From NCBI RefSeq assembly GCF_001941345.1, contig NZ_CP009251.1, positions 2,418,001 through 2,482,000 on the forward strand: a stretch of 64,000 nt of DNA, read 5' to 3'. How positions within the stretch are numbered: the stretch's first letter is position 1; every line of letters begins with the position of its first letter. Origin of the DNA: Corynebacterium stationis. GTDB taxonomy: Bacteria; Actinomycetota; Actinomycetes; Mycobacteriales; Mycobacteriaceae. A program made the translations under genes and the position numbers. Below are positions 4,068-15,333 of this stretch, in pieces. Below the pieces are notes generated by a model that did not search any database, was not told where the DNA came from, and worked only from the letters and a program-made list of their open reading frames with translations.

Positions 4068-4814
4068 TCAGGCTTCAGAAAATCTCGACGCAGTTGGTAA
4101 GGGCCCCGTGGTGTGGTCTTCGCGTAGCCGCTTGATGATATTTTCTGCAGAGATTAAACACAGCGGCACGCCCACTCCTGGAACGGTGGTTGCTCCAGCG
4201 TAATACAGGTTATCGATCTTGGAAGAGATATTCTTCCCGCGGAAAAATGTTGACTGTGCCAAGGTATGTGCAGGTCCTATTGCCCCGCCATCCCATGCGT
4301 TAAAGCGCTGCGCGAAATCTTGTGGCCCAACGGTTTTAGAAATCACGATTCGCGAAGCTAAATCTTCAATTCCTGCCCAGCGTGCGATGACGTCAATCGC
4401 TTGCTTTGCGATGTCATGCACTCGCGGATCTTCTTCACGTACTTCCATGCTGTTGCTGGCGTTAATATCCTCGGCGGCTTCTAGAAAAGCATTACCGTGG
4501 CCAAGATCTGGCTCTGCAGCGGTGGGAATGAGCACGAAGAGATTTTCATAGCCTTCAGGAGCCACATTGTCATCGGTTGCGGAGGTCTTCGAGACATACA
4601 TCGACCGCGACCACTTTGAATCGAGCGGGGAGGCTTCTTTGCCAAAGACAGCGTCAAAGTCCGTGCTTAAGAACAAAGATTAACGCGCTAACTCTGAGAG
4701 CTTTCCTGTCTCCCGGTGTAGATGAGGACGGTTCCCAAACCAGGGTCGCGCTTGTCCCAGTATTTTGCGGGATAAGTACGCAAGTGTGGTGGGCGTTCAG
4801 TCCTGCGCCATAGC
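4068..4814 (-). pseudogene. crtI: Phytoene desaturase remnant (C-terminal part of CrtI)
   Basis: The last 200 or so residues (4068-4676) are clearly CrtI: the motifs GAIGPAHTLAQSTFFRG and YYAGATTVPGVGVPLCLIS are the conserved C-terminal FAD-fold segment of bacterial phytoene desaturases. The N-terminal dinucleotide-binding GxGxxG region is missing. Just upstream, another frame reads LGTVLIYTGRQESSQS and then stops, and the next frame picks up LSTDFDAVFG, which is the order expected in CrtI (membrane segment, then DFDAVFG). So at least one frameshift and a large N-terminal loss are visible. It abuts an equally broken crtB, implying an internal deletion fusing the two. The upstream boundary is approximate. 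Confidence 0.85.
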
Positions 4815-5024
4815 CGGCACCGTCAGCAATCTCATCGGCGATGCGCACTACTGCATACATACTGCGGATGTCAGTTTTACGTGACCGCGCAGCAAATTAG
4901 AAGCTAGGAAAAAGCTGCTGGAATAGCGACGAATAATCTCATGCGCTGCATGCTGAGCGGAGCGGTCATAGTGGTGCAACAACTTAGCAGGCTGTTCCTG
5001 CCAGGCACCCGACATGCTTTCCAT
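4815..5024 (-). pseudogene. crtB: Phytoene synthase remnant (N-terminal part of CrtB)
   Basis: The fragment encodes the start of a squalene/phytoene synthase: EIIRRYSSSFFLASNLLRG followed, in another frame, by MYAVVRIADEIADG, which contains the beginning of the first Asp-rich motif. The two pieces are adjacent in every known CrtB, so the frame switch near 4860-4870 is a one-base loss (GTAAAACTGAC where one more base is needed). After about 70 residues the homology stops and CrtI-like sequence begins. Both catalytic DxxxD regions cannot be present, so the gene is dead. ATG at 5024 or 5015 would be the ancestral start. Confidence 0.82.
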
Positions 5025-5417
5025 ACCTCCGTGAGAAGCACTCAACGCATTGTGATCCACGCGTCGTGCTCCGTTCAATCGCTAACTCATATTCGCTAAT
5101 TTTTCCATCATTAGCACTCAATGACTATAAGCCGGAGGGTGAAAATCTTAAGCATTGGGTCAAAATCCGAGGCGGGAAAAGCCCTTTTTCCGCCCTCGAA
5201 CATGAGCCGAAAATAAACCCCTCTAACCACATGAACAACATGAAAACACACAGGTCACAGTAGTGTACCCCTTGTTTACCCCTGTTGCTCGCACCTGTTT
5301 TTATTCGGTTCTAAGGTTCCTTTATAGACCTTGATAACGATTAAATAACGAACCCCTTGCGCTACCGCACTTTATCTTCACGGCAGTTACAGGCAGGGTT
5401 CGAGTGGAGCGAATTCG
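5025..5417. other. Intergenic region between crtB remnant and CAP gene
   Basis: No gene is supported here. An imperfect hairpin, GAGGCGGGAAAA ... TTTTTCCGCCCTC, lies at 5169-5197 and could be an old terminator. The region nearest 5418 should hold the promoter for the CAP gene; GGAGCG ahead of its ATG is the ribosome site. Confidence 0.4.
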
Positions 5418-5957
5418 ATGAACGCTATTCAAACTCAGATCGCTGGCATCGTCGCCGTTATAACAGCCGCGACGGGTAGCCTTACCGGCGGCGTCCAAGA
5501 CGTTGTGCAGTCTATTGGCGCTCACGTCGGTGGCTCTTCGCAGTCAATCACCGCCACGGCGAACGCTGCTACGCCACCGTCCTCTAGCAACATAGTCAAC
5601 ACCCAGTCTGTCTACGTAGCTATCAATGAGTACCGCATCCGCCACGGCGTAGCACCAGTGGCACCTAACCCGCAGCTCGATAGCATCGCACAGCGCTGGG
5701 CTAATCACATGGCTCGTACAGGCGTTCCTGCGCACAACCCAAACTACTTGAAGCAGTACCCAGCCGGCTGGAAGGAAGGCGGCGAGAATGTTCACCAGAA
5801 CTGGCGCGGCGCTTCCACCCAGGAAGTAGTCCAGGCATGGCACAATTCGCCATCCCACCGTCAGAATCAGGCAGACCCCTACTTCAACCAGATCGGCGTG
5901 GGCGTTGCTTATAGCTCCGATGGACGCATGTGGGTAGTTACAAACTACATGCGCTAA
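5418..5957 (+). CDS. Secreted CAP-superfamily (SCP/PR-1) protein
   Basis: 179-residue protein with a hydrophobic N-terminus (IAGIVAVITAATGS), a Ser/Thr-rich linker, and a CAP domain from about residue 65 to the end. CAP signatures are visible: the N-terminal helix with VAINEYRIRHGV, the GENV motif, and HNSPSHRQN, which supplies the conserved His/Glu cavity residues, then a final strand WVVTNYMR. In bacteria these domains are usually exported and of unclear enzymatic role. TGGAGCG precedes the ATG by about 7 bases. It is a single gene that ends at a strong bidirectional terminator. Confidence 0.85.
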   Translation: MNAIQTQIAGIVAVITAATGSLTGGVQDVVQSIGAHVGGSSQSITATANAATPPSSSNIVNTQSVYVAINEYRIRHGVAPVAPNPQLDSIAQRWANHMARTGVPAHNPNYLKQYPAGWKEGGENVHQNWRGASTQEVVQAWHNSPSHRQNQADPYFNQIGVGVAYSSDGRMWVVTNYMR

Positions 5958-5988
5958 TTTATAAAGGCTTCAGGCGTTTAAACCAAAA

Positions 5989-6030
5989 GCCGCGGGCAGC
6001 AATTTTACGTGATTGCTACCCGCGGCCTTT
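5989..6030. terminator. Bidirectional terminator between CAP gene and FMN reductase
   Basis: Arms GCCGCGGGCAGCAAT and ATTGCTACCCGCGGC pair over 15 positions with one mismatch and an 8-base loop. A T-run follows on the plus strand and AAAA precedes, so it can end the convergent genes on both strands. Confidence 0.85.
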
Positions 6031-6046
6031 GTGATGTTTAAAAGTA

Positions 6047-6598
6047 TTAAGCGTTAACCTTCTTGAGCATTGCTTCAAGGTCGGTAAACAGGTTGGCTGC
6101 TTCTTCAATCTTGCGATCAGCTGGAGCAAATCCGCTCTCGTTAAACTCGGTGAACAGGTTGAACTCTAGCGCTGCACGAACCTGCAGCATCTGGAAGTTG
6201 GAAACAATCAGACGCCATGCCTCGATGGCGCGAACTCCGCCGGAAGCACCGTAGCCAACGAAAGCTACAGCCTTGCCGAACCACTCGGAGCCCAGTGCGT
6301 CGAACGCGTTCTTGAAGCCACCTGGAACGGAGTGGTTGTACTCAGGGGTAACGAAGATAAAGCCATCGAAGGAATCGATCTTGTCGGACCATGCTTGGAC
6401 CTGCTCGTTGTCGTACTGCTTGTTAGCAGCGCCTGGGATAACTGGGCTCTCCAGCAGTGGAACGTTAAATTCCTTCAAGTCCACCAGCTCGTACTCAACG
6501 CCGGTGTCGCGGCCCTGAGCTAAGTCATTAACCCAGCGTGCAACGCCTTCGCCCATACGACCTTCACGGATTGAACCAAGAACAATTCCGACCTTCAT
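6047..6598 (-). CDS. NADPH-dependent FMN reductase / flavodoxin-like oxidoreductase
   Basis: 183-residue flavoprotein of the NADPH-dependent FMN reductase family. The phosphate-binding loop GSIREGRMGE lies at the N-terminus and the flavin-binding loop TPEYNHSVPGGFKNA at about residue 80-95, both diagnostic. Such enzymes reduce FMN, quinones, azo dyes or chromate using NAD(P)H; the physiological acceptor cannot be read. ATG at 6598 is chosen because GAAAGG stands 9 bases before it; a TTG two codons earlier has no ribosome site. It ends at the shared terminator with the CAP gene. Confidence 0.88.
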   Translation of the reverse strand: MKVGIVLGSIREGRMGEGVARWVNDLAQGRDTGVEYELVDLKEFNVPLLESPVIPGAANKQYDNEQVQAWSDKIDSFDGFIFVTPEYNHSVPGGFKNAFDALGSEWFGKAVAFVGYGASGGVRAIEAWRLIVSNFQMLQVRAALEFNLFTEFNESGFAPADRKIEEAANLFTDLEAMLKKVNA

Positions 6599-6661
6599 TA
6601 GCAAAAACCTTTCGATAGTTGATATGTCACGAACTACCCTAATTGATTAAAGGTTTAAGCG

Positions 6662-8245
6662 CTAGTTCTGTGATTCAGGTTTCACCAATGGGAAGAGTAC
6701 GGTCTCGCGGATACCCAAGCCAGTCAGCGCCATGAGCAGGCGATCGATGCCCATTCCGGCACCGCCTGTTGGCGGCATGCCCTGTTCCATGGCTGAAAGA
6801 AAGTCCTCATCCAGAACCATTGCTTCGTCGTCGCCGGCTGCAGCCAGGCGCGCTTGGTCTTCAAAACGCTCGCGCTGAATGACTGGATCGACAAGCTCGG
6901 AGTAGCCAGTTGCCAACTCAAAGCCGCGGACATACAGGTCCCACTTTTCGGTAACGCCTGGTTCGCTGCGGTGTGAACGGGTCAAAGGTGAGGTCTCCAC
7001 TGGGAAGTGCTTAACAAATATTGGGCCTTCCAGCTGGTCTTCGCACAAAAGCTCCCAGATTTCTTCAACCAACTTGCCGTGGCCCCAGCCGCCGTCCTTC
7101 GGAACATCCAGGCCAACAACCTTGGCTAGTTCCTTGAGCTCTTCGACGGTGGAGTCAATGGTGACTTCCTTTTGGCCTGGGAACTTCTTCTGCAGTGCCT
7201 CATTAAGAGACGGGTACATTTCAATCTCTGGCCAGGTCTCGCCGCCAAGGTCATATTCGGTGCCATCGGCAAGCGTGACAACATGCGATCCAAAGACTTC
7301 CTGAGCTACCGCTTGGATGGAATCCTTAATGGTCTTAGCAATACCGTTGTAGTCGCTCCAGGCATCATAAATCTCCAACATCGCAAACTCCGGGGAGTGG
7401 GACTTATCGATGCCCTCATTGCGGAAGTTGCGGTTGATCTCAAAGACCTTATCGATACCGCCAACAACAGCCCTCTTGAGGAAAAGCTCAGGTGCGATAC
7501 GCAAGTACAGATCAATGTCAAGCGCGTTAGAGTGGGTGACGAATGGACGCGCTGCTGCACCACCGTGCAAGGTCTGCAGCATTGGGGTTTCAATCTCATT
7601 GAAACCATCATCTTCTAAGTGATGACGCAAGGCCCGAATGACCTTAATGCGGGTCATGGCGTTCTTGCGGGCTTCTTCACGCAGAATCAGGTCATTGTAG
7701 CGCTGACGCACGCGCGTATCTTCTGCCATATCCGCAAATGCCACTGGCATCGGGCGCAGTGACTTGGAAGCCATCTGCCATTCACTCGCCATGACGGACA
7801 ACTCACCGCGGCGAGAAGAAATCACACGACCAGTTACGGAGATGAAGTCTCCTAAGTCGACGTCAGACTTCCATGCAGCTAGGGATTCCTCGCCGACCTC
7901 GGCAAGCGACAGCATCGCTTGCACCTGGGTGCCGTCACCATCTTGCAAGGTGGCAAAGCACAGCTTGCCGGTATTGCGCATAAAGATAAGACGGCCGGCG
8001 ATGGAAACAACATCCTGGGTTTCCTGGCCGACTTCCAAGTAAGTCACGCCGTCTGCATCGCCTGCGGACTCACCTTCTGCAAGCACCTGGTATTGGCCAC
8101 GAAGGTCGCGCAAAGAAGTGGTGCGCTTTACGCTAACGGGATAAGCCTCAATGCCGTTGTCTATCAGACGGGCGCGCTTATCGCGGCGGATCCGCAGCTG
8201 CTCGGGAACGTCTGGGGTCTGGGTATTTTTCTTCTGCTCGCTCAC
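6662..8245 (-). CDS. lysS: Lysyl-tRNA synthetase, class II
   Basis: About 527 residues. An N-terminal OB-fold anticodon-binding domain (residues about 60-180) is followed by a class II catalytic core: motif 2 [18 protein letters not shown] and motif 3 GMGIDRLLM at the C-terminus are clear. It charges tRNA-Lys in the cytoplasm. GTG at 8245 is preferred to GTG at 8251 because TAACCT lies 7 bases upstream, the spacing expected for a leaderless transcript. In mycobacteria and corynebacteria lysS sits near clpC and the pantothenate/folate genes; here a four-gene block on the opposite strand separates it from the PanC-like gene. Confidence 0.97.
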
Positions 8246-8461: not shown

Positions 8462-10552
8462 GTGGATCTCAAAGGTCGTAACCTTCTAAGTTCACTATTT
8501 TCATCGTCTCGTTCTTCTTTGACGTGTACCTATAAGTGCGGCAACGCATGTTTTGGAGCATGCGACAATACCTCGAGTAATCCGTATTTTGGTGACCAAT
8601 TTTCTCGGCGTAAAGCGCTCCGTGCGGGCGGGCTAGCCGTTGTCACCGTCGGCGGCGGTGCCGCTTTAGCAGCATGTGCTCCACCAAGTTCAAACGGCTC
8701 TTCTGCGGCAACGTCTACAACTGGGACGCCCGGAAGTTCGTCTTCACAGCACATCTCGGATAAGGGCATGCAATTTACTCCAGTGGAGCCGAACACTGAG
8801 GACGTGATTGTCATCCCAGAAGGCTACGAGCAATCTATCCTCATCGCCTGGGGCGACCCAGTCATTGAGGGTGCGCCAGAGTTTGATGTGCAGAATCAGA
8901 CCGCAGAGGCTGCTGAGAAGCAGTTCGGTTTCAACAACGACTTCGCTGGACTGCTAGAACACCCAAGTGATGACTCTCGCATGGTGTACGTCTGCTCCCA
9001 CGAGTACACCACCGAGCCGCAAATGTTCCCGGATTATGATCCAGAGAATCCTTCAGAAGAGCACGTCAAAATTGGCTGGGCAGGTCACGGCCTCACAGTT
9101 TTAGAAGTCTCCAAAGTCAAAGGTTCCGGCGATCTCAAGCGCGAGTTTGGACCACTCAACCGCCGTATCACCGCAACTACACCATTTAAATTAGTCGGAC
9201 CTGCCGCCGGTTCTGATTACACGAAGACCAAAGCTGACCCCACCGGAGAGACGGTGTTGGGCACCCTGAATAACTGTGCAGGTGGCGTGACCCCGTGGGG
9301 CACCATCTTGTCGGGCGAAGAAAACTTCGACCAATACTTCGCCAATGCCAAGTCTGATAATAAGCGCACACAGAAATCTCTGGAACGCTTTGGCTTTGGC
9401 GATGAAGCATCAGATCGCAAGTGGGAAAACTTTGATGACCGCTTCGATGTCTCCAAAACTCCTAATGAGGTCAATCGTTTCGGATACATTGTGGAATTCG
9501 ATCCTTTTAATCCCGAGTCCACCCCTATCAAGCACTCCGCTAACGGCCGTTTCAAGCACGAGGCTGGGAACATCCACATCACCGATGACGGCACCGTAGT
9601 CTGCTACTCCGGCGATGACTCCCGGTTTGAGTACATCTACAAGTTTGTCTCTTCCAAGAAGATGGTCGAAGGCGACCTCGAGCACAACATGTCCATCTTG
9701 GACAACGGCACTTTATATGTTGCTGTCATGGAAGGTAACTCCCCCGAGGAAGAAATCGACGGCTCTGGCGTCTTGCCGGAAGACGGCGCGTTCGATGGCA
9801 CCGGCTCTTGGAAGCCGCTTTTAACCTGTGAAGACGAAAAGTATGAGTCTCACGTTGATGGCTTTACCGCTGAAGAGGTAGCAATCTTCACCCGCGAAGC
9901 AGCCGATGAAGTGGGAGCAACGAAAATGGATCGCCCTGAAGATATCGAAGTACACCCCACTTCTTCTAAGGTCTACGTTGCTTTGACCAACAACTCCTAC
10001 CGCGGTGCAACCGGCGAAAATGCTGATAGCAATAAGGAAGACCCACGGGAGTGGGCACCGGTCAAAGAAAATAAAAACGGCCTGGTCATGGAAATCGAAG
10101 ATGACCACGCTGGCGAGAGCTTTACTTGGAACCTACTTCTAGTCTGTGGCGATCCAAAGGAAGCAGCAACTTATTTCGGTGGCTTTGACAAAGAGAAGGT
10201 ATCCCCCATCTCCTGCCCAGACAACTTGGCTTTCGATAACCACGGATTGATGTGGATTTCTACCGACGGCAATGCTCTCGGTTCCAACGATGGTCTTTAC
10301 GCTGTAACCACCGAAGGCAACAATCGAGGTGAACTCAAGTGCTTCCTCACCGTTCCCGCTGGCGCGGAAACCTGTGGCCCGATCGTCACCGATGAACGTG
10401 TGATGGTCAACGTTCAACACCCGGGTGAGTCCGACGACGCGACGTTTGCAAAGCCAACCTCCAACTGGCCGGATGGTGGCAACTCCACCCCGCGCCCAGC
10501 CGTCGTCACCGTCTGGCGCACCGACGGCAATATTGGTATCCAGGACGCTTAA
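8462..10552 (+). CDS. phoX: PhoX-family phosphatase (DUF839), Tat-exported
   Basis: 696 residues. A Cys-rich leader (CTYKCGNACFGAC, about residues 22-34) and NPYFGD precede a twin-arginine signal SRRKALRAGG with hydrophobic stretch ending LAACAP, which resembles a lipoprotein Tat signal. The body has the PhoX motifs: NCAGGVTPWGT, SGEENFDQYF, RPEDIEVHP and CPDNLAFD. PhoX enzymes are calcium/iron-dependent alkaline phosphatases that release phosphate outside the membrane. GTG at 8462 is used because GGAG lies 8 bases before it. No partner gene is obviously linked; phased repeats upstream suggest phosphate control. Confidence 0.92.
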   Translation: MDLKGRNLLSSLFSSSRSSLTCTYKCGNACFGACDNTSSNPYFGDQFSRRKALRAGGLAVVTVGGGAALAACAPPSSNGSSAATSTTGTPGSSSSQHISDKGMQFTPVEPNTEDVIVIPEGYEQSILIAWGDPVIEGAPEFDVQNQTAEAAEKQFGFNNDFAGLLEHPSDDSRMVYVCSHEYTTEPQMFPDYDPENPSEEHVKIGWAGHGLTVLEVSKVKGSGDLKREFGPLNRRITATTPFKLVGPAAGSDYTKTKADPTGETVLGTLNNCAGGVTPWGTILSGEENFDQYFANAKSDNKRTQKSLERFGFGDEASDRKWENFDDRFDVSKTPNEVNRFGYIVEFDPFNPESTPIKHSANGRFKHEAGNIHITDDGTVVCYSGDDSRFEYIYKFVSSKKMVEGDLEHNMSILDNGTLYVAVMEGNSPEEEIDGSGVLPEDGAFDGTGSWKPLLTCEDEKYESHVDGFTAEEVAIFTREAADEVGATKMDRPEDIEVHPTSSKVYVALTNNSYRGATGENADSNKEDPREWAPVKENKNGLVMEIEDDHAGESFTWNLLLVCGDPKEAATYFGGFDKEKVSPISCPDNLAFDNHGLMWISTDGNALGSNDGLYAVTTEGNNRGELKCFLTVPAGAETCGPIVTDERVMVNVQHPGESDDATFAKPTSNWPDGGNSTPRPAVVTVWRTDGNIGIQDA

Positions 10553-10860: not shown

Positions 10861-12576
10861 ATGAACTCATTACTCCTTGCCGTTATCGGCGTAGCCATGA
10901 TGATTGGCGGCTACCTCCTCTATTCCAAATTCCTGGGTAAGAAGGTTTTCCAACTTTCACCAAGCTACAAAACTCCAGCCCACACCATGGAAGATGGCGT
11001 GGACTTTGTTCCTACTAACAAGTACGTGCTGTGGGGACATCACTTCACCTCCGTGGCAGGTGCCGCGCCAATCATCGGCCCCGCAGTTGCCGTCATCTGG
11101 GGATGGTTTCCGGCGTTTCTCTGGGTGACCATCGGTACGGTTTTCGCTGCCGGTATGCATGATATGGGTGTTCTTTGGGCGTCACAACGCCACCGCGGCC
11201 AGTCTATTGGACTGTTGTCTGGACGCTACATTGGTAAGCGCGGCCGCATGCTCTTCCTCGTGGTTATCTTCTTACTGCTGCTCATGGTCAACACTGCCTT
11301 CGGCGTGGTTATCTCCGGACTACTGATTTCCACCCCGTCATCAGTCATCCCAACTTGGGGAGCCATCGCCGTCGCCCTGTGCATTGGGCAGGCTATCTAC
11401 CGTCTGAAGTGGAACCTGCCGCTGGTTTCCGTTGTTGGCGTGGTCGCGCTGTACTCCCTGATGCTCATTGGAGATAAATATCCAATCTCTTTGCCAGAAA
11501 CTGTGCTGGGAATCCCAGCAGCTGGTGTTTGGATCATCATCTTGTTCATCTACGCATTCTGCGCTTCGCTGCTGCCAGTGTGGATGCTGCTTCAGCCACG
11601 TGACTACATCAATGGTCTGCAGCTGTTCATCGGCCTGGGTATTCTCTACGCATCTTTCTTGTTCACCCGCCCTGACCTCGTTGCACCGGCATTCCGTGAA
11701 GATGTTCCTGCCGGCACCCCAGGCATGTTCCCACTGTTGTTTGTGACTATTGCCTGTGGCGCGATTTCAGGCTTCCACGGAATGGTTGCTTCCGGCACCT
11801 CGTCGAAGCAGTTGGATAAGGAAACCGATACTCGCTTCGTCGGCTACTTCGGTGCTGTTGGTGAAGGCCTGCTGGCGCTGGGCACCATCATTGCAACCAC
11901 CGCCGGTTTCCGCACGTACCAGGAGTGGGAATCCATTTACTCCGAGTTCAACGCCGGCGGTGTTAACGCTTTCGTTGAAGGCGGCGGCAACTTGCTCAAT
12001 GAAGGCCTCGGAATTTCCACTTCCCTGTCAGCGACAATCCTGGCAACCATGGCCGTGCTGTTTGCCGCAACAACCATGGACTCCGGCGTGCGTCTACAGC
12101 GCATCGTAGTGCAAGAAATTGGTGATACCGCAGGTATCAAGATCAATACCTTCCTAGCAACGTGTATCGCCGTGCTGGTCGCCTTTGGTCTGACTTTCTC
12201 CCAGGGCACCGACGGTTCGGGCGGCATGACCATTTGGCCGCTGTTCGGTACCACGAACCAGCTCATGGCAGGCCTGTCTCTGTCCATCCTGTTGCTGATT
12301 CTGATGCACCTGCGCCGACCAACGTGGCCAATTCTTATCCCGCTGCTCTTCCTGACAGTGATGTCCCTGTGGGCTGCGTTCATCCAGTTGGGTACGTTCT
12401 TCCAGCAAGGCAACTGGTTGCTGTTTATCATGGACGTCATCATCGTTCTCGCAGCAATCTGGATCATCGTGGAGGTCTTCCTCGCGGTTGGCCGCATGAA
12501 GCATACAAAGCAGATTGAGTGGAGCGACGAAGACGTCGATGCTCCCACACCGGAGCCGATAAGCAGCGAGGCTTAA
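10861..12576 (+). CDS. cstA: CstA-family peptide/pyruvate transporter
   Basis: 571 residues and about 16 hydrophobic segments. Family motifs: VLWGHHFTSVAGAAPIIGPA near residue 57-76, the GMHDMGVLW loop, HGMVASGTSSKQL near 308-320, and the DSGVRLQR motif. CstA proteins and the related BtsT/YjiY import pyruvate or peptides during carbon starvation. It is shorter than the roughly 690-760-residue E. coli type and belongs to the shorter subgroup. GGGGAGC precedes the ATG. The next gene starts 3 bases after its stop, so the following two genes are in one operon with it. Confidence 0.93.
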   Translation: MNSLLLAVIGVAMMIGGYLLYSKFLGKKVFQLSPSYKTPAHTMEDGVDFVPTNKYVLWGHHFTSVAGAAPIIGPAVAVIWGWFPAFLWVTIGTVFAAGMHDMGVLWASQRHRGQSIGLLSGRYIGKRGRMLFLVVIFLLLLMVNTAFGVVISGLLISTPSSVIPTWGAIAVALCIGQAIYRLKWNLPLVSVVGVVALYSLMLIGDKYPISLPETVLGIPAAGVWIIILFIYAFCASLLPVWMLLQPRDYINGLQLFIGLGILYASFLFTRPDLVAPAFREDVPAGTPGMFPLLFVTIACGAISGFHGMVASGTSSKQLDKETDTRFVGYFGAVGEGLLALGTIIATTAGFRTYQEWESIYSEFNAGGVNAFVEGGGNLLNEGLGISTSLSATILATMAVLFAATTMDSGVRLQRIVVQEIGDTAGIKINTFLATCIAVLVAFGLTFSQGTDGSGGMTIWPLFGTTNQLMAGLSLSILLLILMHLRRPTWPILIPLLFLTVMSLWAAFIQLGTFFQQGNWLLFIMDVIIVLAAIWIIVEVFLAVGRMKHTKQIEWSDEDVDAPTPEPISSEA

Positions 12577-12579
12577 TCA

Positions 12580-12843
12580 ATGTCGCTGAAAGACAAACTG
12601 GCGCGGTTCGGTGCGGAACTTCAAGAGTATTATTCCGCGCCTTACCGGGCAGCGTTTGCAAAAGCGCAGCAGCAAGAAGATGACCTTTTTATGCTGCTAG
12701 TAATGTCCGAGGCTCTCGGTATTCCGAACCCCGCTAGTTTCTATACCCTCGAGCTTCTTCCCGTCATTTATGAGGATTTCCACGCCTGGCACCGCCGGAT
12801 GGGGATGGCTAACTCACCGTTGGAGAATATTCAGTGCTGTTAA
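12580..12843 (+). CDS. Small protein ending in Cys-Cys (cory-CC-star type), CstA-associated
   Basis: 87 residues, acidic/amphipathic, no membrane segment or signal. The C-terminus is IQCC followed directly by the stop codon. I recognise it as the small corynebacterial family named for this Cys-Cys-stop ending. Visible features are aromatic residues in EYYSAPYRAAF, the helix DDLFMLLVMSEALG and YEDFHAWHRRMGM. Function is unknown. The last two Cys codons overlap the GTG start of the ATPase gene, so translation is coupled. In E. coli the CstA-family genes are followed by YbdD/YjiX, unrelated small proteins that also end in Cys-Cys, suggesting an analogous partner of the transporter (inference). 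Confidence 0.8.
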   Translation: MSLKDKLARFGAELQEYYSAPYRAAFAKAQQQEDDLFMLLVMSEALGIPNPASFYTLELLPVIYEDFHAWHRRMGMANSPLENIQCC

Positions 12844-13802
12844 ATATTCCTACCACCCCCGTGATGTTCTTTGGTGGTAAAGGTGGGGTGGGTAAAACAA
12901 CCATCGCTAATGCAACCGCACTGAAGCTTTCGGCTCATGCTTCCACGTTGGTGGTTTCAACGGACCCCGCGCACAACGTTGGCCACCTGTGGAATATGCA
13001 GGTAGGAGATACTCCAACCACGGTGCGCCCAGGCATTGATGTGTTGGAGCTCGACCCCGCACGTGCTACGAACGAGCATCTCAAACAAGCTGGCGACACG
13101 ATGCGCCGGATGATGCCGGAGCATTTGCACAAAGAAGTTAGCAAGCACCTCAACTTAGCCAAGCATTCGCCGGGCACGCATGAGGCCGCACTCTTGGAGC
13201 GCATCGCCATCTTGTTGGAAGAATACGGCGAAAGTTATGACCACATCATCTTTGATACGGCGCCTTCAGGCCATACCGCACGCTTGATGGCCTTGCCGGA
13301 GCTCATGTCCGCGTGGACTGATGGGTTGTTGGAACGCCGCGCGAAATCAGAGAAGTTCTCCGAGCTGGTGCGCGGGATGTCACCGACGGGTAAGGACACT
13401 ACGGTGACCACGGCTATCGATCCAGTCGACCGCCGCAACCAAGAGTTGCGTTCCATTTTGCTCAAGCGCCGTCACCGGTTTGAACGTCTTCGCGCAGTGC
13501 TTAACGATGCCACCGCGTGCACCTTCAACATTGTCCTCACCGCGGAGCGTCTGCCGGTGTTAGAAACAGATGAATTCCACGCCGAGCTCACCGCCAATGG
13601 CGTGCACGTCGGCGCGCTTATTGTTAACCGCCGCTCACCTGCGGACCAGGGCGAATTCTTAGCTTCCCGCCGCCACTACGAGGACGAGGCCTTGGCCGAA
13701 TTACACCGGCGCCTGCCGAATCTCCCTGTCGTCGAAGTTCCACTGCGCGCTCACGATGTTGGTTCACCGCAGGCGCTAGAAGATATCGCTGCTTACCTTT
13801 AG
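12834..13802 (+). CDS. ArsA/Get3-like ATPase
   Basis: 322 residues, a single SIMIBI-class ATPase domain. The deviant Walker A GGKGGVGKTT with signature lysine lies at residues 14-23, switch I DPAHNVGH follows, and switch II is DTAPSGHTARLMALPE near 136-151. ArsA proteins power arsenite pumps; Get3 proteins carry tail-anchored proteins. No arsenic genes and no zinc CxxC pair are present, so neither function is supported. The gene overlaps the small CC protein by 10 bases; GGAG lies 8 bases before the GTG. Context says it acts on CstA or the CC protein. Its stop codon overlaps that of the convergent PanC-like gene by four bases. Confidence 0.88.
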   Translation: MLLNIPTTPVMFFGGKGGVGKTTIANATALKLSAHASTLVVSTDPAHNVGHLWNMQVGDTPTTVRPGIDVLELDPARATNEHLKQAGDTMRRMMPEHLHKEVSKHLNLAKHSPGTHEAALLERIAILLEEYGESYDHIIFDTAPSGHTARLMALPELMSAWTDGLLERRAKSEKFSELVRGMSPTGKDTTVTTAIDPVDRRNQELRSILLKRRHRFERLRAVLNDATACTFNIVLTAERLPVLETDEFHAELTANGVHVGALIVNRRSPADQGEFLASRRHYEDEALAELHRRLPNLPVVEVPLRAHDVGSPQALEDIAAYL

Positions 13803-14650
13803 AACGATCCCGCTGCGTTGTCAGCGCCCTCAGCATGCGCTTCGATATTGCGGAAGCCAATGCCCAAAGGCAGGCCAACATTATCAGTTAGGCGCACGCC
13901 CCCGATATTCGCTGCAACAAGCAGGCGGGCATCGCCAATTTCGGGGGCGGGGCCAAGGTCTAAGCCGCGCAGTTCAACATACTCAGGCTCAATGCCGGCG
14001 GCGTCTAATACGGTATTGACTACTTCCAAGACCTGTTCTGCACCAGCTTCGGCAGCGTGCGCGCCGGCGGTCAGCGCGGCGGACAAGGTGCTGGCTTTAT
14101 CACGCGCAGATTCTTCGACGTCCAGGTTGCGCAAAGACAGCGCTAGGCCATCGGGCATGCGCACGGTAGGAACACCTTGCAGACGCACCTGAATGTGGAA
14201 GTCACGAATCGCCTGGTTGAGTGCGATAAGCAGTTCATAATCTTTTTCGCCGACCACGACATCGCTGGGGGCAAGGGCGCCGATTAAGGCGAGATTGCGG
14301 GTGAGGGCATCGGAAAGCTCATCGGCAGGCTCTAGCGCCTCTTGCTTCGCGGTAAGGTGCAAATGCTGACCCTTGGGCCATAGCTTGTCATCCGTGTACT
14401 GCCAGATGACATCCACGGACTCCGTGCGCAACGCGTTGAGATCGTCTTCGTCTTCGGAGGCAATCGCCACAACCACGACGGCGCCGCGGATGGCTTTGGC
14501 TGCGCGCACCAAAGCGATATGGCCAGCATGCACCCCGCGGCCAAGCGGCACCAGCACAACGGGTGCTCCGGTCTTTTTGAAGGCCGAGCCCACCTTAGAA
14601 ATCATATCGAGCTCGGTTACTACCGTTGCTTGCCCGCGACCAATGCTCAT
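13799..14650 (-). CDS. Divergent PanC-like (pantoate-beta-alanine ligase family) protein
   Basis: 283 residues with the PanC fold: HAGHIALVRAAK (the HxGH nucleotide-binding site), GEKDYELLIALNQAIRDF and PDGLALSLRN. It sits where mycobacteria carry panC, next to the DUF2520 gene. However, several hallmark residues are missing: there is no NPxQF pantoate/beta-alanine loop, no HFxGV segment, and the GEKDYQQ glutamine is replaced by Glu. Either it uses another substrate or it is a degenerate paralogue with a true PanC elsewhere. ATG at 14650 is preceded by AGGAGG at the right distance and overlaps the upstream stop (ATGA). Confidence 0.75.
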   Translation of the reverse strand: MSIGRGQATVVTELDMISKVGSAFKKTGAPVVLVPLGRGVHAGHIALVRAAKAIRGAVVVVAIASEDEDDLNALRTESVDVIWQYTDDKLWPKGQHLHLTAKQEALEPADELSDALTRNLALIGALAPSDVVVGEKDYELLIALNQAIRDFHIQVRLQGVPTVRMPDGLALSLRNLDVEESARDKASTLSAALTAGAHAAEAGAEQVLEVVNTVLDAAGIEPEYVELRGLDLGPAPEIGDARLLVAANIGGVRLTDNVGLPLGIGFRNIEAHAEGADNAAGSF

Positions 14651-15333
14651 CGAAGCTCCTCCTGCAATCCCCACATCTCTAATTCCATATTGTGTTCCAA
14701 TTCGCCTACTCGGCGTGCCGCTTCGACAAAAGCTTTTCTAAACCCTGGGTCCGTAATTGACTGGAACGCCGCATAAATATCGCTGATTTCAAAGCGCGGC
14801 GCTAAGAATTCGCCTAGTTCTTGCTCTGAAGGCACAGCCTGTTCATCGAGCAGTTCTTTCAAATCCCGATGGGCTGCGCGCGCTAATTGGCGCACCATCT
14901 GCGCGTAGGCAATCTTTGGCGCAAGTTCAACTCGCTCAGCATCCGTCTTCGGCATACTGACTTGGGCTGATTCAAAAAGCAGCACTTCTGCAATTCCCTG
15001 CGCGAGCTCGTCACTGGTAGTCACCACCCACCTATCAGCGCCGACATGGGCTATCGCCATGGCTAATGCGCCGTGCACTTCAACCGGATCGAGGACTTGC
15101 ACGCCCAAGCCGATACTGGTGTGGATGACAATTTGTCCGCGGCGAATGTGCGGTTCGAGCGCTTCAACAATGCCTTCTATCTGCGCTTGGGACGTAGCAA
15201 TGACAAGGGCTTCACAATCTACTGCCGCAGCAGGCGATGAAAGCTCAACAATGTCATGGCCTTGGGCTTCGAGCAGTGCTCGAAATCGGTTTTCGCGGCC
15301 AAACCAACCGACAACCATGCGTGGTGCTGGCAT
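14647..15333 (-). CDS. Rossmann-fold DUF2520 protein (Rv3603c-like)
   Basis: 228 residues. The N-terminal half begins with a beta-alpha unit resembling a dinucleotide-binding site (VVGWFGRENRFRALLE), then VIATSQAQIEGIVEAL and the loop IHTSIGLG, as in reductases of the 6-phosphogluconate/ketopantoate type; the C-terminal half is helical. In M. tuberculosis the corresponding gene precedes panC, so a role in pantothenate synthesis, perhaps as a reductase, has been suggested by context; not proven. It overlaps the PanC-like gene by four bases and starts 6 bases after the preceding stop, so it is part of the folate-pantothenate operon. Confidence 0.72.
   Translation of the reverse strand: MPAPRMVVGWFGRENRFRALLEAQGHDIVELSSPAAAVDCEALVIATSQAQIEGIVEALEPHIRRGQIVIHTSIGLGVQVLDPVEVHGALAMAIAHVGADRWVVTTSDELAQGIAEVLLFESAQVSMPKTDAERVELAPKIAYAQMVRQLARAAHRDLKELLDEQAVPSEQELGEFLAPRFEISDIYAAFQSITDPGFRKAFVEAARRVGELEHNMELEMWGLQEELR

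Follow-up and report, generated by a model that had tools for sequence, protein, structure and literature searches.

In E. coli a very small Cys-Cys protein accompanies a pyruvate-type importer, and a locus of Corynebacterium stationis shows a comparable arrangement. In the window, by which we mean the whole analysed stretch of 64,000 nucleotides, three genes follow each other on the forward strand: a CstA-family transporter of the short type (571 aa, 10861..12576), an 87-aa protein with a C-terminal Cys-Cys (CstX, or cory-CC-star protein; 12580..12843) and a single-domain ArsA/Get3-like ATPase (322 aa, 12834..13802). Three bases (TCA) separate the cstA stop from the CstX start (ATG, 12580), and an SD-like GAGG inside the cstA end lies 8 bases 5' of that start (12568..12571). 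CstX terminates in NIQCC followed by TAA (12843), and the alignments show its His68-x-x-His71 (12781..12792) to be conserved along with the terminal Cys86-Cys87 (12835..12840). The GTG of the ATPase at 12834 takes its first base from the end of the Gln codon and its other two from the beginning of the first Cys codon, which gives the two ORFs a 10-base overlap (12834..12843); an SD-like GGAG is located 8 bases 5' of this start (12822..12825), and the P-loop GKGGVGKTT (12876..12902) has a pattern present in 33/33 relatives checked. Later ATPase starts at 12861 or 12864 are possible in the window. The 10-base geometry is possible in many relatives, being for example the position of the sole listed ATG/GTG/TTG start of the ATPase in six loci, and RefSeq annotates an identical overlap in Paracoccus and Pseudochrobactrum. 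Fusions of CstA with CstX or of CstX with the ATPase were not found among the collected relative loci, no known RNA element reached its gathering score in the window, and a promoter scan returned a single match, on the opposite strand, which is fewer than in shuffles.

The transporter matches PF02554 with 431.9 bits (E 5.3e-129; gathering score 27) and reaches 215.5 bits against the E. coli CstA equivalog NF011590, below its cut-off of 1188; judging from the family and from residues common with E. coli CstA and BtsT, its substrate may be pyruvate. CstX, which combines a Cys-Cys-stop terminus with linkage to CstA and a single-domain ArsA, scores 133.1 bits with NF041419 (curated cut-off 80), an entry that carries only the name cory-CC-star and gives no function, and no Pfam family matched it up to E 1, PF04328 (YbdD/YjiX) included. 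The ATPase matches TIGR00345 (GET3/ArsA/TRC40) with 205 bits (cut-off 135) and PF02374 with E 1.2e-57, and falls below the arsenical pump ArsA equivalog TIGR04291 (136 vs 650 bits). Arsenical ArsA is known for a Cys triad; the window protein, with 1 Cys, has neither this triad nor the two-domain layout. A CxxC zinc site is a hallmark of Get3; CxxC occurs in 0/33 relatives of the ATPase, which have no conserved Cys column either (best column 12/33). By sequence, its PDB relatives include single-domain archaeal ArsA/Get3 proteins (3zq6, 3ug6) and Get3, and a search of solved structures gave no convincing relative of CstA or CstX.

The trio itself is not new. CstA-CstX-ArsA operons have been described, and a coupling role proposed, by Castillo & Saier (2010; PMC2963123), who found 26 ArsA-CstA clusters, 24 of them with CstX, and two organisms with two CstX. 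These operons hold the same three components as the window unit, including a single-domain ATPase, and their CstX is probably NF041419, with which size, context and duplicates agree. The available text of their account mentions neither a Cys tail nor YbdD. It presents CstX as a single-TMS protein, whereas hydropathy gives no support for this in the Cys-tailed proteins: the Kyte-Doolittle maxima of 72 Cys-tailed CstX are 0.82-1.54, with no stretch of TM strength. In a distant branch of CstX the maximum reaches 1.74 (one copy).

How tightly the three genes belong together was assessed in 131 Corynebacterium genomes. CstX is present in 44, a YbdD-type protein in 39 and both in 2 of them; together they cover precisely the 81 CstA-bearing genomes, the remaining 50 having neither of the two. 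The order cstA-cstX-ATPase on one contig and one strand is found in all 44 CstX genomes and is therefore not a chance arrangement, and the CstA adjoining CstX is of the short type in 44/44. The ATPase family exceeds its cut-off in 48 genomes, namely the 44 with CstX (adjacent in every one) and four others in which 592-608-aa frames are matched twice, so the ATPase tracks CstX and not CstA. Other ATPases give weaker matches, below the cut-off, in 130 of the 131 genomes. Genomic comparison thereby shows one co-inherited unit, whose ATPase accompanies CstX rather than CstA in general. The cassette has moved between phyla; DNA similarity begins at cstA and leaves out the last 40-50 bases of the ATPase gene. 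Several claims of the sequence-only reading stand up well here: the ORF coordinates confirm the packing of the three genes with a start inside the Cys codons, the neighbourhood survey yields a CC-ending gene and an ArsA-like ATPase linked to CstA in 44/131 genomes, the constant order agrees with one functional unit, and the trio occurs far outside close relatives, across phyla. CstX is rare in some groups (1/114 genomes in the class of G397, that one being G397 itself). Plasmid searches gave no matches for a distant CstX query or for the REWD protein described below, and a further CstX query returned the same 6 records as an earlier one. A CstX match of 23 bits in G240, which has no CstA, was counted (among 28) but is taken as a chance match, and a CstX-like match in Haloferax lies below the cut-off.

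A close comparison is with CstA-YbdD and BtsT-YjiX-YjiA of E. coli, where a CstA-family transporter is likewise followed by a small Cys-Cys-tailed protein, and where YbdD is needed for full uptake. Pyruvate uptake in E. coli is given as 13% without cstA, 20% without ybdD and 25% without both, and in growth on 3-fluoropyruvate the ybdD effect is smaller than the cstA effect (0.61 vs 0.96), the authors allowing for indirect effects (PMC5847655); a pyruvate phenotype has also been reported for cstA of Desulfovibrio (PMC10102598). The E. coli systems differ from the window unit in their long-type CstA and in a small protein without detectable homology to CstX: hhalign gave 2.8% with only 7 tail columns aligned, from shallow alignments, and at this sensitivity we rejected homology. 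What CstX and YbdD/YjiX have in common is a resemblance only, namely CstA linkage and the Cys-Cys tail (also Cys-x-Sec in YbdD-type proteins). The NTPase differs as well, being a G3E GTPase that, among the YbdD-type loci tested, is linked only in the btsT and Rahnella loci, where YjiA adjoins YjiX. YjiA is absent beside E. coli cstA-ybdD and in four further annotated CstA-YbdD/YjiX plasmid loci, and tblastn of about 1.5 kb of flanking DNA found a YjiA- or ArsA-like gene beside 0/58 sampled YbdD-type loci. The sequence-only reading, which called the small proteins non-homologous, agrees with the lack of detectable homology, and CstX does take the place of the YbdD-type protein; of its E. coli analogy, the interchangeable Cys-Cys protein accompanying CstA survives, but the general triad of CstA, Cys-Cys peptide and SIMIBI NTPase finds no support.

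The YbdD/YjiX family, and not CstX, is the one known as DUF466 or KCU-star selenoproteins (also NF033934; PMC13188914, PMC9312934), which resemble the CstX tail in carrying Cys-Cys or Cys-Sec at the extreme C-terminus and for which a redox role was proposed by analogy with thioredoxin reductase (PMC4607533). CstX tails read Cys-Cys before the stop. Among the 36 extracted YbdD-type tails, 5 were misread and two further loci were read separately; in some tails Sec probably replaces the last Cys, which would point to active chalcogen chemistry. In other Actinomycetota CstA is accompanied by a third, unnamed Cys-Cys protein (REWD), in four cases with neither CstX nor the ATPase. It shows sub-threshold Thioredoxin_3 matches in 6/18 sequences, and an hhalign comparison based on two ArsD sequences only did not establish homology to ArsD (7%, E 0.005). 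Three kinds of Cys-pair protein, mutually without detectable homology, accompany CstA, and for two of the kinds no ATPase is linked; genomic comparison shows that such proteins go with CstA whether or not an ATPase is present. There are also CstAs without any detectable Cys-pair neighbour (12/19 genomes inspected of 38 CstA-only Actinomycetota genomes), and 4/7 CstA-bearing control genomes gave no match to either partner family, so the fold does not require the tail in every case. In a small number of sequences, column R325 of CstA tracks the Cys-pair partners (R in 39 and K in 1 of 40; R in 3 and K in 1 of 4; R in 29 of 31), as opposed to L in 3/3 and V, L or Q in 8/8 of the contrasting groups.

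Within CstX, the Cys-Cys tail is kept in 62/62 rows outside the distant branch (own locus counted twice), and H..H precedes it in 58/58 Cys-tailed proteins, being invariant in an alignment of 36 sequences. That the tail could be a side effect of the overlap with the ATPase start, an NTG sitting in the Cys codons, is hardly credible, because Cys-Cys is kept in 7/7 loci that have no overlapping ATG/GTG/TTG start. Where CstX is duplicated, the neighbouring ATPase is duplicated too, one locus holding CstA with two CstX and two ATPases and two others being likewise duplicated. Eight distant CstX copies from four genomes with duplicated CstX all lack Cys and the aligned His pair and still retain the ATPase, which implies that the association of the CstX body with the ATPase is separable from the tail. 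One of these copies has H..H at another position. The CstAs accompanying Cys-less CstX (3 sequences) are altered at several otherwise conserved core residues, so the loss of Cys may reflect another substrate.

With slightly less than even confidence, we favour a model in which CstX is an accessory subunit of short-type CstA that is cycled by the ATPase while its Cys tail acts on CstA. The CstX body would dock on a homodimer of the ArsA-like ATPase, which itself would carry no Cys ligands, and the His-x-x-His...Cys-Cys tail would act on CstA as a thiol or metal-thiolate element and fill the role of the YbdD/YjiX Cys-Cys or Cys-x-Sec tail in other CstA systems. By using ATP, the ATPase could then attach CstX to CstA and release it, or shift it between an inactive and an active state, and so switch the transporter. 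Contacts, homodimer, direction of action and tail chemistry are proposed here from sequence comparison. Co-occurrence is compatible with activation, energization and assembly alike, and the ATPase could still prove to be the binding partner of the tail.

The published proposal that an ArsA homodimer powers CstA with ATP as ArsA powers ArsB, with CstX as linker, is doubtful in our judgement, although it comes with congruent trees (Castillo & Saier, 2010; PMC2963123), although TIGR00345 is described as transport-energizing, and although distances correlate across 33 loci (r 0.93 for CstA-ATPase, 0.88 for CstX-ATPase and 0.77 for CstA-CstX; five loci left out, no species-tree control). An ArsA-like gene is linked neither in YbdD-type nor in REWD-only CstA loci; BtsT, a member of the same family, bears the name pyruvate:H+ symporter; and the window ATPase, like those of the non-arsenic clusters (PMC2963123), lacks the Cys triad that E. 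coli ArsA needs. We regard it as unlikely that the ATPase is a Get3-like assembly factor for CstA folding or insertion, or one that directs CstX to CstA: the archaeal and Get3 structures among its relatives and the translational overlap, which fits a chaperone-client pair, are set against the missing CxxC, a Cys-tailed CstX without TM-strength hydrophobic stretch, and YbdD-type CstA loci that manage without the ATPase. The hand-over advanced in the sequence-only reading, in which the ATPase loads the tail with metal or thiol and passes the load to CstA within a general triad shared with YjiA, is distinctly unlikely. His-x-x-His with Cys-Cys is a plausible site, and two His are also kept by 19/19 Cys-tailed YbdD-type proteins checked in the genus. 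ArsD-ArsA-ArsB likewise unites a small Cys-pair protein, an ArsA-fold ATPase (here of about 570 codons) and a transporter in one operon, and a Cys-Cys lies near both ends of ArsD, but ArsD is not detectably homologous to CstX (0.35%). Against hand-over stand YbdD-type and REWD partners that have no linked ATPase, ATPase-linked CstX without any Cys, and the lack of a conserved Cys in the ATPase.

Tentatively, and extending the subunit model, CstA-family transporters may have repeatedly recruited unrelated accessory subunits with a vicinal Cys pair or Cys-x-Sec (CstX, YbdD/YjiX, REWD), forming a possible class of thiol- or selenol-switched carboxylate transporters in whose CstX branch a dedicated ArsA-fold ATPase would recharge or re-dock the subunit. 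Within one genus, two CstA subtypes differ exactly in which of two unrelated Cys-tailed proteins they are paired with, which is a natural experiment; an ATPase that goes with one partner only and a third Cys-pair partner provide further ones on the tail, be it redox switch, metal site or docking peptide. The comparison parts two questions that had been joined in earlier proposals and in the sequence-only reading, what the ATPase acts on and what the cysteines act on.

The tight packing of cstA, an 87-residue Cys-Cys ORF and an ATPase gene, as described in the sequence-only reading, was borne out on the window sequence. cstA (PF02554, E 5e-129) ends at 12576 and is separated by TCA from the start of cstX (12580-12843), which encodes 87 amino acids, ends Cys-Cys-TAA and matches cory-CC-star (NF041419, 133 bits versus a cut-off of 80). 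The ATPase (TIGR00345, 205 versus a cut-off of 135) starts with GTG at 12834 within the Gln/Cys codons of cstX, the ORFs overlapping by 10 bases; an SD-like GAGG and a GGAG lie 8 bases 5′ of the cstX and ATPase starts, respectively. No terminator-like site was listed 3′ of the ATPase in a scan to 14000, and a convergent minus-strand ORF (13799-14674) overlaps its stop by 4 bases. A PhoX-family alkaline phosphatase gene (8462-10552) precedes cstA in the same orientation; PhoX was also present in 12 of 37 CstX loci from genome_contigs, none of the 12 with a proteobacterial title.

Among 396 Actinomycetota genomes, CstX gave a match in 28, of which 21 exceeded the cut-off; the match in G240 is probably due to chance. 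In this phylum search, Cys-tailed CstX (L002-L024, own locus included) was accompanied by the ATPase in 23/23 loci and by CstA in 22/23, the contig of the remaining locus (L020) starting 540 bases before the CstX match. Both partners were found by tblastn in all 37 genome_contigs loci; in L059 a CstA of 32% identity follows the ATPase gene rather than preceding it, and in two loci (L039, L049) a tandem pair of CstA genes precedes CstX and ATPase. One Corynebacterium CstX (L032) is 97% identical to that of the window, in line with a Corynebacterium genome. The trio also co-occurs outside close relatives: the genome_contigs loci include Arthrobacter, several contigs titled Gammaproteobacteria and one Burkholderiales MAG. 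CstX is found on plasmids of Paracoccus, Pseudochrobactrum and Cytobacillus as well. In the class of G397, CstX was found in one of 114 genomes (G397, the centre itself) and the YbdD-type protein in eight.

One contig titled Granulosicoccaceae (L034) carries the three genes at 4295-7232. Its DNA similarity to Corynebacterium alimapuense (L046) and C. pollutisoli (L044) is found only at 4292-7184 and 4286-7192, respectively, overshooting the three genes by no more than a few bases, at their start. Its CstA, CstX and ATPase proteins all nest in one and the same Corynebacterium group. Because similarity is confined to the three genes and the proteins share this nesting, the trio would, if the record title is correct, have been acquired as a cassette by transfer.

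Excerpts of Castillo & Saier (2010; PMC2963123) report 26 ArsA-CstA clusters, of which 24 include a small CstX, and congruent trees, with CstX proposed as the link between transport by CstA and ATP hydrolysis by ArsA; they mention neither the Cys tail of CstX nor any comparison with YbdD/YjiX. A search under 'cory-CC-star' returned no papers, and searches on CstX/CstA/ArsA, Corynebacterium cstA/pyruvate uptake and the KCU-star/CC-star names gave, among the matches listed, no further triad paper.

That the small protein is not homologous to YbdD/YjiX, as initially proposed, agrees with the profiles, which align at the tail only (2.8%). Among 131 Corynebacterium genomes, 44 have CstX, 39 the YbdD-type protein (PF04328), two both (G415, G452) and 81 CstA; genomes with either partner are exactly the CstA genomes, neither occurring in the 50 CstA-less ones (Fisher 2e-37, uncorrected for relatedness). 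CstA frames are mostly 567-637 aa, matched as two pieces, in CstX genomes and 710-862 aa in YbdD-type genomes. Across the phylum sample, CstA is present in 107 of 396 genomes, 27 with CstX and 43 with the YbdD-type protein (G171 with both) and 38 with neither; a partner without a CstA match was seen in G240 (CstX) and G345 (YbdD-type). PF04328 was absent from all six CstX genomes tested from genome_contigs.

The ATPase tracks CstX, including through duplication and Cys loss. The family is above cut-off in 48 of the 131 Corynebacterium genomes, 44 of which are the CstX genomes, and adjoins CstX in all 44; the other four (G408, G414, G478, G524) have 592-608-aa frames matched twice, and some weaker match occurs in 130 of the 131. 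Eight distant CstX copies from four genomes (G034, G179, G213, G037) are homologous to CstX (96.6%), contain neither Cys nor the aligned His pair, and stand in tandem pairs adjoining tandem ATPase pairs and CstA. Such Cys-less CstX paralogues were located in L117-L119, L121 and L122, tandem ATPases in L117-L119 and L122, and CstA in L117-L119 and L121; the three CstA proteins compared (L117, L121, L204) differ at several core residues that are conserved elsewhere. The P-loop is present in 33/33 ATPase relatives and a DTAPSGHT-like motif in 31/33, with no conserved Cys (best column 12/33) and no CxxC.

The general triad including a SIMIBI NTPase did not hold: no YjiA-like, ArsA-like, REWD (a third Cys-pair protein) or CstX gene was found within ~1.5 kb flanks of 58 YbdD-type loci (20 in the genus, eight in the G397 class and 30 across the phylum; the flanks of L105 and L179 are shorter), the search detecting YjiA in both positive controls. 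YjiA is annotated beside E. coli btsT-yjiX and in Rahnella, and is not annotated beside E. coli cstA-ybdD or in the Pseudomonas, Xanthomonas, Paracoccus and Paraburkholderia loci; the Pararhizobium stretch is unannotated, and no CstA is annotated in that of Mycetohabitans.

Cys-pair or Cys-x-Sec proteins track CstA, also where the ATPase is absent. Outside the distant branch, all 62 CstX rows (own locus counted twice) end Cys-Cys, His-x-x-His precedes the tail in 58/58 Cys-tailed sequences (57 deduplicated plus L024), and Cys-Cys is kept in seven loci without any ATPase ATG/GTG/TTG overlapping the cstX end. YbdD-type tails read Arg-Cys-Cys in 20/20 loci of the genus. Inspection covered 19 of the 38 CstA genomes lacking both partners, as well as a second CstA copy in G326 that stands without a partner. 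In four genomes (G258, G308, G183, G236) a ~135-aa REWD protein (LVREWDxQ..GSGCCGRLGG...VDPRN...DGkVl) at the end of short-type CstA is the sole Cys-pair partner found; the genes lie beside CstA on the minus strand (L191:2705-3103, L192:2313-2738, L193:2217-2624, L194:2305-2697). It also matches 15 phylum loci (L005-L015, L018-L020, L023), between CstA and CstX in 14 and before CstX at the contig edge in L020. No match was obtained in the 37 genome_contigs loci, and the copy in Cytobacillus is divergent and lacks the Cys part. No member passes a family threshold (18 scanned in Pfam, four in NCBIfam). In three of the 19 genomes the contig stops at or just past CstA, and in 12 no Cys-pair neighbour was found by tblastn with the known partners and REWD or by scanning for Cys at the C-terminus or adjoining it, with frames read by eye in only some; two of these (G142, G355) have a CstA of only 24% identity.

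In 12 loci of one Actinomycetota family, f18 (L161, L166, L169, L171-L173, L176, L178-L180, L183, L184), the YbdD-type tail reads ...NPGSRCP-TGA-stop, with TGT (Cys) replacing TGA in the homologue L170. A conserved GCGGGCC-GGTC-GGyCCGC hairpin lies just downstream, with two-sided changes in one of seven pairs and one pair broken in one sequence. These tails thus probably end in selenocysteine as Cys-Pro-Sec, judging from codon and hairpin. A terminal Cys-Sec in DUF466 is already published (PMC4607533), in excerpts of which the Cys-Pro-Sec form was not met. tRNA-Sec is above cut-off in 9/12 TGA-tail genomes (not G290, G184, G354); because it also occurs in 5/17 Cys-tail controls (the tail of control G008 was not read), in 8/8 CstX genomes of f18 and in the window's genome, it marks the clade and not the tail. 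Given the strong match in the latter (G000:C1:1813611-1813701, minus strand, 77.7 bits), the window's Corynebacterium may make selenoproteins.

That the ATPase tracks CstX and Cys-pair proteins track CstA suggests, from genome comparison, a division of roles in which the CstX body would pair with the ATPase and the Cys-Cys tail with CstA. Counting against this division, CstA without any partner exists. The tail of CstX may act in redox switching, in metal binding or as a docking peptide.
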